From Sistotremastrum niveocremeum HHB9708 (lineage: Eukaryota; Basidiomycota; Agaricomycetes; Sistotremastrales; Sistotremastraceae), in contig KV419395.1 in NCBI GenBank assembly GCA_001630475.1, positions 186,001 to 250,000 on the forward strand: 64,000 bases of DNA, in the 5' to 3' direction. Below, one piece after another: positions 16,431-20,756 of this stretch. The notes beneath the pieces were generated by a model, which ran no database searches, had not been told where the DNA came from, and worked only from the letters and a program-made list of their open reading frames with translations. The position numbers were made by a program, and so were the translations under genes. Positions within the stretch are counted from its first letter, which is position 1. Every line of letters begins with the position of its first letter.

Positions 16431-17910
16431 TTATGCTTGGGCAGCGATGGGTTGTGGTTGACCCAATGTAGGAGCTTCAGGGCCTTCCATGCTGTCAGCT
16501 TCAGCCTGTGCAATTCGCATGGCACGGCACTCGTCAACGAAATCGGTGAACATCTGAATGCATACCATCAGTCATCATACTCTCAATGATAGGCGGAACA
16601 CAAACCTCAATAGTGTCCAAAGGTCCGCCAGCGCTCTCAGGATGGAACTGAACGCCCCAGACTTTGCGACCGGATTCAGCAGTCGAGATAATGCCCTCAA
16701 CAGATGAATCATTGCAATTGATGAAGAATGGAGCCCAACCGGCTGGGAAAGGGTCTTGAAGCTTGAGAGCATATTGATGGTTTTGGCTAGAAGCTTGATG
16801 AGTTGACTGTCTAAGAGTATAACGGAAATGACCATACCTAGTTACATACACACGTCCAGCCTTGATCGAGCCGGAAGATGCGAGAGCGAGGACAGGCTGA
16901 TTATGGCCCCGGTTGCCGAACGTCATTCGGTATGCATCCAGTCCTGCAGCAATACCAATGATTTGATGACCCATGCAGATCCCGAACACCGGTTTCTCCC
17001 ACTCCTTCAAAGTTTTCCTGAGATGCATAGCAGCCTCCATGCACTGCAGGGGATCGCCTGGACCATTGCTCAAAAATAGACCGTCGAACTTGTCTCGGAT
17101 GGTGTTGAAATCGAAGTTCCATGGAAGAACGGTTACACGTGCGTTCCGACGGATCAGCGATCGAGTGATATTAGCTTTGGCGCCGAAATCGAGGACTGCA
17201 ATATCTACGTCGCCATTCGGGTTTAACACAAATGGTTCTCGAGTGGACACTTGGTCAACTAAATTCTCGAGCGAGGGATCCCAATACTCGTGCTGTTCTG
17301 GCGCAGGTGCATCGACGTCGGCACCAACAGCTATACGTCCGAGTGTCGTGCCTTGATCACGAAGAAGGCGAGTGATGGCTCGAGTGTCGACGCCAGTGAT
17401 GCCAGGGATTCCGTGTCTGTTGCACCACGAAGAAATGGATTCGGCAGCGAGGTAGTGGGAGAACTGATCAGCAACGTCCGTGACAATGACACCTGCACAT
17501 TGAATCTTCTTTGATTCAAGGAGGACGCCAACGTCTTGGTGGTCGTTGGGAGCGTGATTTATGGGGACCCCATAATTTCCGATAAGCGGAGTGGTAAACA
17601 CGAGGATTTGACCGCGATAAGAGGGGTCAGTCATTGACTCAGTATCTTCAACAAAGTGAGCAGAGCGTCCGTATTGTCGATAGGTGACTATGTGCTTACA
17701 AGAGGTTATAGCAGTGGAGAAGACGGTCTCCCCATAGATGCTTTTTGGTGCTCCGAATGATCGGCCGAAAAATGACTCGCCAGTCTTGAGATGCAAGACG
17801 GCGGGAAGGGGTGGTTTGACCAGAGGTGGTGAGGCATGAGTGGCAAGACCTCTGGTGGCGATGGACGCCATTCGGACGGAGCCTTTGGATTTCAAGAAAA
17901 TGGTGAACAT
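16431..17910 (-). CDS. CPA1: Arginine-specific carbamoyl-phosphate synthase, small (glutaminase) subunit, mitochondrial
   Basis: Hydrolyses glutamine and passes ammonia to the large subunit, which makes carbamoyl phosphate for arginine synthesis. Four exons (16431-16553, 16606-16786, 16838-17645, 17700-17910) give 440 residues. A basic Ser/Thr-rich leader without acidic residues suggests mitochondrial import. The N-terminal CPSase domain includes ESMTDPSYRGQILVFT and GNYGVP. The class I glutaminase domain carries SNGPGDP, the nucleophile Cys in FGICMGHQ, and the His/Glu pair in GVQFHPES. All introns are in-phase with the family; two of them have lengths divisible by three, so the unspliced frame stays open and is misleading. 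The last exon supplies MFTDFVDECR, the typical C-terminal helix. It is headed by a candidate regulatory uORF. Confidence 0.96.
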
Positions 17911-17939: not shown

Positions 17940-18058
17940 TTAATTGAGGAGAGAAAAGATCAAGTCACTAAGATAACTGGGGAAATTAAGGATAAGCAAA
18001 GGTAAGAGCAGAGAAAGAGAGAGGCCTACTCGTCTCTTGTGCTTTGAGTGAAGGGCAT
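17940..18058 (-). promoter_or_regulatory. Spliced upstream ORF resembling the arginine attenuator peptide (AAP)
   Basis: In the CPA1 5' leader an ATG at 18058 starts MPFTQSTRD and, unspliced, meets a TAG after 10 codons. Removing a 53-nt intron (17977-18029, GTAGGC...CCCCAG, pyrimidine-rich) joins it in phase to DYLSDLIFSLLN and a TAA at 17940-17942, a 21-residue peptide. Fungal AAPs carry the core (Q)DY-L/I-SDH-L/I-W; here DYLSD is exact, and the following H-L-W is L-I-F. The uORF stop is 29 nt before the CPA1 ATG. In Neurospora and yeast, AAP stalls the ribosome at its stop codon when arginine is abundant. Placement in front of the same gene argues against chance. Function with the changed Trp is inference. 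Confidence 0.62.
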
Positions 18059-18276
18059 GTACCCTGGAAGAAAATTTCAAGGAGGATATGGTCCGGTGGA
18101 GCTTTAGAAGAGAAAATTGCTTCCGGCCTCCGATCCTGATGCAAGGTCACGCAACGGTCACGGGGTCGTCACGCAATCCAAACGTTCTCGGTCATCGACG
18201 ACCAAGCTTAAGGTGCTTATACACGTTCCTCGCATCGCCTCCGTTTTTACGTCCTCACACTCATTCAATTCGAAAA

Positions 18277-19378
18277 ATGGTAGGCCAGCTGATTTCATTT
18301 GCTCGCCATAATTGCGTTGACAGTGGTCACCAGGCACCGAGAGGCCTCTCCGTCGAAGAAAAGCGCGTCAAACTGCTGGAAATATTCCACGAAACAGTGC
18401 GGCTTGTTATGTACAGTCATGCAGGGTCTTATGAAACTTGACTCTCATAGAAAGACTTTTACCAAGTAAGAGCACCGCAGACTGACTGACAAAGCTCTCA
18501 TCAATCGCTCCCAGCTCAAAGAATTGGAAAAGGTAAAAGACCCGAGGCATGGTGTTTGAACAAATCGCCTACCTCTCACGATTAGCTGGGCCCGAAGATG
18601 AAGGGAATAGGTACGTCAAAGCTCTTCAATTTTTCTACACCGATAATCTAACTCATTGATATAGTCTCGCAAACTGTGAAAGAGATCCTACAATCACTTG
18701 TAGATGACGGACTTGTTCAGAGCGACAAAATTGGAGCGTCCAACTGTGAGTGGAAATAAACAGCTTTTGTTCATAAAATAACCACTATATGCGCCGTATA
18801 CTAGTTTTCTGGAGCTTCCCATCCCAGAGAGGGGCCATGGTTAGCATACTATCCTCTCGGTTTTCGAGATATTAATTCTCCTCCAGATGACGAACAAGCT
18901 TGCCAATGCGAAGAAGAATCACGAGAGCTTGCAAGTCCAAATCAAACAAGCAAAAGAATCACTAGCGACCGAGACCGCACTCCGCGTAGAATCGGTAAGT
19001 TCTTCGTTCCCTCTGCTCATTTATATGTATACCCTCGCAGGATCATCGATCTGCCGCCATCGCAAAACTCGATAAAGCAAAAGCCACAGTATCCGAACTA
19101 GAGAAAGAACTCGAACAATACGGAGCTTGTGATCCAGCCCAAGTCGAAGAGAAAAAACGCGCCTTGATACTCGCTCATGAAGCCGTCGTTCGCTGGACAG
19201 GTATTTTCCGCTACGCTTTGCTATTGAATACCCCAACTCCCGCTTCTTGTTGGCAGATAATCTCTCTGTGGCTCTTTCTTATTTTGCTTCTGCCTTCGCG
19301 GTCGATACGAGTGCTGTACGCGTTCATTTCAATATCAAGGAGGACTTTGAGGATATCCCGGAACTCGGCAAGATTTAA
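18277..19378 (+). CDS. MND1: MND1, meiotic recombination coactivator
   Basis: Partner of HOP2; the nuclear heterodimer stimulates DMC1/RAD51 strand exchange in meiosis. About 205 residues in roughly ten exons. The first exon is the ATG alone (18277-18279), then a 54-nt intron, then APRGLSVEEKRVKLLEIFHE, the conserved winged-helix start. A 15-nt microexon encodes KDFYQ, followed by LKELEK, LGPKMKGI, VSQTVKEILQSLVDDGLV and the FFWSFPS motif. A long coiled coil (NKLANAKKNHESLQVQIKQA through LEKELEQYGACDP) and a short C-terminal domain ending EDFEDIPELGKI complete it. Divergent from CPA1, with 218 bp between this ATG and that of the CPA1 uORF. The density of tiny exons makes it easy to miss in automatic annotation. 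Confidence 0.92.
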
Positions 19379-20230: not shown

Positions 20231-20756
20231 CCCACCTGCCTCTGGCAGGGCTCCTTGTCTCCGGACGAAATCCTCGGTGGCTCCAGATCTTCTGTGCTGG
20301 GCCAATGGCTACCCGTCGCGCAGCGCTACCTTGTGTAGTGTTGCCGGCCTGCGTAGTCTGCCGTTGTTGGAGAGCCTAGTGAGAGTCAGCGTAACCTATC
20401 CCACCTCACCTGCATTCATTGCAGGGCTCCTCGTCTTTGTGACGAAATCTACTTCGGCTCCGGATCTTCTGTGCCGGGATACTGGCTGTATCGTCGCGCG
20501 ATGCTTTTGCGTCGCCGGCCTGTGCAGTCGGCCGTTGGAGAGAGCCTAGTGAGAGTCCGCGTTACTGTAATCCAGCCTCACCTGCCTCTGGCAGGGCTCC
20601 GTGTCCTCTGGACCGAATCCACCCTCCTCTTTGGAATGGTGGAGAGCCTAGTGAGAGCGGTGGACCCCCAACCCGGCCTCAGCCTCTTGTGGTGCTCAGA
20701 GTCCTCTGGACGAAATCCGATGGTGTCTTTGACTCATTGGAGAGCCTAGTGAGCGC
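20231..20756. repeat. Four-unit imperfect tandem repeat array
   Basis: Four diverged direct copies lie end to end, starting near 20231, 20401, 20574 and 20676. Each begins with a CACCTG...GCAGGGCTCC block, continues with a GACGAAATC-like block, and closes with GGAGAGCCTAGTGAG. The first two units are about 170 bp and share an inner block around TCCGGATCTTCTGTGC and GTCGCCGGCCTG. The last two are shortened to about 100 and 80 bp by loss of that block. No conserved reading frame runs through the array. Spacing and unit size rule out a CRISPR array. Confidence 0.75.

Follow-up and report, generated by a model that had tools for sequence, protein, structure and literature searches.

A probable attenuator-peptide uORF with a putative small intron ahead of CPA1 in Sistotremastrum niveocremeum

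The arginine attenuator peptide (AAP) is the textbook nascent-peptide sensor of eukaryotes. Does the leader of CPA1, the gene for the small subunit of carbamoyl-phosphate synthase, encode such a peptide in Sistotremastrum niveocremeum HHB9708, and would it be present in unspliced as well as in spliced RNA? We analyzed a window of 64,000 nucleotides from contig KV419395.1, and all coordinates given here are positions within this window.

The CPA1 leader and its interrupted reading frame

The features on which the argument depends are the following.

16431 to 17910, minus strand: CPA1, carbamoyl-phosphate synthase small subunit, 440 aa, with introns at 17699-17646, 16837-16787 and 16605-16554
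17940 to 17976, minus strand: uORF exon 2, with the T that completes the core Asp codon, then YLSDLIFSLLN and the stop TAA at 17942-17940
17977 to 18029 (53 nt), minus strand: putative intron, GT-AG, reading GTAGGC...CCCCAG
18026 to 18028, minus strand: stop TAG that ends the frame when the intron stays in; it overlaps the 5' splice site
18030 to 18058 (29 nt), minus strand: uORF exon 1, with the ATG at 18058, the codons for MPFTQSTRD and the GA of the core Asp codon
18059 to 18276: gap of 218 bp between the uORF ATG and the MND1 ATG, with a TATA-like element (TATAAG, minus strand, 18221) and two copies of GTCACGCAA
18277 to 19378, plus strand: MND1, divergent, 209 aa, nine placed introns, matching Pfam Mnd1 HTH and LZ3wCH

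The gene behind the leader had been named CPA1 in the first-pass annotation, and this assignment holds, because its 440-aa spliced protein scores 382 bits against NCBIfam TIGR01368 (carbamoyl-phosphate synthase small subunit; cutoff 307) and matches both Pfam CPSase_sm_chain and Pfam GATase. The three CPA1 introns are 54, 51 and 52 nt long. When CPA1 was used as a query against its own genome (34.7 Mb in 111 contigs), it found itself and two pieces of contig 9 with 44% identity, which probably represent the pyrimidine-pathway enzyme rather than a second copy of CPA1. Six peptide patterns derived from CPA1 found no fungal relative in the collections of viral contigs and genome contigs, and the scan of the genome-contig collection returned one bacterial homologue of 42% identity. 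The start of CPA1 (MFTIFLKSKGSVRMASIATRG...) holds two in-frame ATGs, at 17910 and 17868 on the minus strand, and they could give forms with a longer or a shorter leader at the N-terminus, perhaps a mitochondrial one.

Conceptual removal of the intron at 18029-17977 gives the uORF peptide MPFTQSTRDDYLSDLIFSLLN, 21 codons long, and its stop codon is separated from the CPA1 ATG at 17910 by 29 nt. When the intron is kept, the same ATG yields MPFTQSTRDE*, 10 codons, ending at the TAG 115 nt ahead of CPA1. Both the short unspliced product and the fusion of its frame to a DYLSD core by excision of 53 nt had been proposed in the first-pass annotation, and both are borne out as readings of the sequence. 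The intron cuts the codon of the core Asp as GA|T, so that unspliced RNA would make from the ATG at 18058 only a 10-mer that lacks the core; the core needs splicing, if the splice is real. The frame of exon 2 read without splicing runs ...NFPSYLSDLIF, in which Ser replaces the core Asp, and its open stretch has no ATG. A second acceptor at 17968 would give MPFTQSTRDDDLIFSLLN, with YLS lost and the core absent. Because retention, the exon 2 frame and the 17968 acceptor all lack the core, only correctly spliced mRNA would encode the AAP if the uORF is one. The earlier suggestion that the stall element is confined to spliced mRNA therefore follows from the sequence, provided that the splice is real. 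When uORFs with zero introns or one intron (45-75 nt, with a CTNA site) were enumerated in the 330-nt leader, five were found, one of which has the core.

The contexts of the two start codons differ. The uORF ATG lies in GGGTACATG (GGGTAC, T at -3) and the CPA1 ATG in CGCACCATG (CGCACC, A at -3). A purine at -3 marks a strong start context, and any other base a weak one. By this rule the context of the uORF ATG is predicted to be weak and that of the CPA1 ATG strong, which would fit control by leaky scanning.

Other ways of reading the leader were considered as well. An unspliced AAP begun by near-cognate initiation is disfavored, as the exon 2 frame is open back to 18146 and gives SYLSD with no ATG. 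The upstream ATGs at 18309, 18298, 18264, 18235 and 18195 open unrelated peptides; the first two of these lie inside MND1, and the last two lie upstream (18235) and downstream (18195) of the TATA-like site.

MND1, a meiotic recombination gene, is transcribed away from CPA1, and since only 218 bp separate the divergent ATGs, the two genes may share a promoter region. The two copies of GTCACGCAA lie at 18146 and 18168, 22 bp apart (18146-18176), between CPA1 and MND1, and are possible bZIP-type sites; a search for TGA[C/G]T[C/A] found no site between 17911 and 18277. Past the 3' end of MND1, a diverged tandem array occupies 20233-20622 (170-bp unit, 2.2 copies, 74% matches).

Likeness of the spliced peptide to the attenuator peptide

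Two reference peptides were used. The N. crassa AAP sequence is identical to PDB chain 2XL1_A, which is named arginine attenuator peptide; the yeast AAP is 25 aa long and has HIW after its core. If the splice is real, the AAP core D-Y-[L/I]-S-D, including the essential Asp, is exact in the uORF peptide. The best ungapped match to the N. crassa AAP (TRDDYLSDLIFSLLN against TSQDYLSDHLWRALN) has 8 of 15 positions identical and a score of 39, compared with 33 for the match to the yeast AAP and 62 for the N. crassa and yeast peptides with each other. The H-[L/I]-W that follows the core is absent, and L-I-F stands in its place, with an aromatic residue kept at the position of Trp. The LIF had been noticed in the first-pass annotation, and the alignment confirms its placement. 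The Trp of HLW matters for stalling by the AAP. As exon 2 is CT-rich and its composition favors codons for F, S and L, the likeness in the FSLLN tail carries little weight, and the case for an AAP rests on the core and on its position ahead of CPA1. These features suggest that the uORF is probably the arginine attenuator uORF of CPA1, interrupted by one small constitutive intron.

It is also conceivable, although considerably less likely, that the uORF is a homologous and spliced descendant of the AAP that has decayed or become insensitive to arginine, the change of HLW to LIF having removed His and Trp and left a mildly repressive uORF. The peptide departs from both the N. crassa and the yeast AAP at three positions in a row right after DYLSD, and as a query on its own the spliced peptide retrieves neither a PDB chain (E up to 10), the AAP chain 2XL1 included, nor a Pfam family. 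However, the critical Asp and the full DYLSD are retained, and an unconstrained sequence is not expected to keep the core. Moreover, Trp is replaced by another aromatic residue and Leu by Ile, and the stop follows the core Asp by 11 residues, compared with 12 in the N. crassa AAP. We class the peptide as a putative variant of the AAP, an aromatic being kept at the Trp position.

Intron signals, chance and splicing control

The candidate intron was compared with 12 reference introns of CPA1 and MND1, which range from 46 to 59 nt. We positioned them by continuity of the reading frame and by likeness to the protein families, and profile matches support the proteins as wholes. We relied mainly on these 12 introns; the larger training sets (183 introns, then 392) contained non-genic open frames as contaminants. 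Among the 12, a purine at +3 and a G at +5 are each found in 10, a YAG acceptor in 11 and a CTNA site within the scanned range in 8. The candidate has A at +3, G at +5 and a CAG acceptor, and its branch-point-like sites CTTAC, CTTAT and CTTAA begin 30, 20 and 14 nt before its 3' end. It has the best score of the 28 GT-AG pairs (44-79 nt) in 18350-17911, and this score (15.5) is comparable with those of the CPA1 introns (15.0, 14.4 and 17.3) and exceeds that of the alternative acceptor at 17968 (11.1). In length, donor, branch site and acceptor, the candidate thus appears to resemble the spliceosomal introns of this genome.

The donor GTAGGC occurs in 2 of the 392 introns of the contaminated training set. 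In 264 kb, 5 of its 77 occurrences have an intron-like tail after them, about twice the base rate of 3.3%, in a test that also gave no enrichment for two donors of CPA1 itself, GTATGG and GTTTGT. The first intron of MND1 (18280-18333) starts with the same GTAGGC as the uORF intron. This intron, one of the 12 reference introns, was chosen on the ground that MAPRGLSVEEKR resembles MND1 starts, and it probably uses this donor, a choice that is not forced, as the frame is also open unspliced. These observations lend modest support to GTAGGC as a donor.

To appear by accident, the motif would need a CT-rich leader in which an ATG, a GT-AG pair and DYLSD happen to coincide, and we regard this as very improbable. 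Some features agree with it: the tail is driven by composition, 1 of 4,000 leader shuffles reaches an alignment score of 39 or higher when both reference AAPs are used for scoring, and 3.8% of 93,390 sampled genomic GT-AG pairs score at least as well as the candidate under a model with the contaminated training set. Against it, DY[LIVM]SD was found in only 39 of 813,414 dinucleotide-shuffled leaders in which uORFs with zero introns or one intron were enumerated (about 5 in 100,000), and in 0 of 4,000 in a smaller set of dinucleotide-preserving leader shuffles. With the start and the intron held fixed, 13 of 1,132,779 shuffles carried the motif and 41 scored at least 39 against the N. crassa AAP. 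From 264 kb (the window and 200 kb of its contig) we also took 1,598 fixed, non-overlapping segments of 330 nt, both strands included, a count that misses frames crossing segment borders and in which most segments are not leaders; the motif is carried by a single segment, that of the CPA1 leader itself, which also has the top AAP score (39, compared with 37 for the next three). The motif is moreover placed at the one gene where an AAP is expected. Taken together, these counts make a chance origin of the core unlikely.

Contiguous DYLSD patterns searched in the genome gave 7 and 28 matches, compared with 4 and 16 for backward control patterns; a Leu codon is present in 23 of the 35 matches, Phe being allowed by the patterns too. 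As the intron divides the motif at CPA1, this contiguous-motif search found no match there. When splicing makes the essential residue of a stall peptide, searches of unspliced ORFs or contiguous motifs cannot see the peptide, and such spliced uORFs may thus be absent from uORF catalogues.

We rejected an RNA structure or a riboswitch as an explanation of the leader, since the fold of its 210 nt in unspliced form is no more stable than those of shuffled sequences (z = -0.16; 81 of 200 shuffles equal or exceed its stability) and no Rfam family was found in the leader at the gathering score. This result, together with the ordinary look of the intron signals, also argues against splicing as the step of control, in which retention or removal of the 53-nt intron, or use of the 17968 acceptor, would switch arginine attenuation; although the core Asp is completed solely by splicing, retention leaves a 10-codon uORF that ends well before CPA1, and the weaker second acceptor yields a core-less peptide, we give such a switch very little credence. 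It is equally doubtful that splicing gates CPA1 attenuation in the sense that regulated retention leaves a harmless 10-codon uORF and lets CPA1 escape arginine control. Of the proposal in the first-pass annotation, the part that stands is an AAP-like spliced uORF ahead of CPA1, in agreement with the statistics, the identity of the gene and the anatomy of the intron; the part that finds no support is splicing as an arginine switch, and an ordinary constitutive intron explains all of the observations.

If the uORF is the AAP uORF of CPA1 with a constitutive intron, its mode of action can be outlined as follows from the biology of the AAP, on the assumption that it lies within the CPA1 transcript; splicing, stalling and the arginine response are inferred. 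Splicing of the uORF intron would be expected to be constitutive and not the regulated step. After splicing, scanning ribosomes would pass over the weak uORF ATG and reach CPA1, or else would translate the 21-codon peptide. When arginine is low, CPA1 would be made by way of leaky scanning and of normal termination. When arginine is high, the ribosome would stall at the TAA at 17942-17940, the predicted stall site, held there by the nascent peptide in its exit tunnel, and the stalled ribosome would block scanning to CPA1 and expose the mRNA to nonsense-mediated decay. The sequence also turns a splicing-gated stall peptide into a directly testable idea.

Comparison with known attenuator systems

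The AAPs of N. crassa arg-2 and S. cerevisiae CPA1 are alike the present case in the gene that they precede, in the single short uORF close upstream of it and in the pattern T..DY[L/I]SD. The Thr three residues ahead of the core Asp is common to the uORF peptide, the N. crassa AAP and the yeast AAP. The peptides are similar in length, 21 aa here compared with 24 aa in N. crassa and 25 aa in S. cerevisiae, and in the distance from the core Asp to the stop. As to this spacing, one report states that arrest persists when the AAP stop is moved towards the N-terminus (PMC13183943), and the difference of one residue from N. crassa therefore need not be an obstacle.

Among basidiomycetes, the closest parallel is the uORF of Cryptococcus CPA1/arg-2 (CND01050 and its homologue), an AAP at the same gene as here. 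The native uORF is reported to have strong ribosome occupancy in two species, the main ORF is repressed, CPA1 mRNA is up 5-fold in upf1-delta, and AAP uORFs were verified in a cell-free system by Hood 2007, as cited there (PMC7049704). Since a Cryptococcus CPA1 uORF is reported there, an AAP in basidiomycetes is already known and is not new here (PMC7049704). The role of the core Asp is illustrated by two substitutions described in two further papers: D13N in the yeast AAP abolishes the arginine effect (PMC7969011), and D19N leaves an AAP-like uORF of Toxoplasma largely unresponsive (PMC8370653). The latter, the TgApiAT1 uORF of Toxoplasma gondii, encodes an arginine-responsive peptide with a critical Asp, as does the AAP, but it differs in belonging to an arginine transporter gene in another lineage, and its authors suggest possible convergence (PMC8370653).

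No intron-split AAP is described in the titles or abstract openings among the literature matches listed, and the core Asp built by splicing and the LIF tail seem to be new features. It is in these two respects, LIF in place of HLW (HIW in the yeast AAP) and an intron within the codon of the core Asp, that the S. niveocremeum uORF differs from the N. crassa and yeast AAPs, and an AAP with LIF for HLW would lend itself naturally to testing which residues sense arginine.
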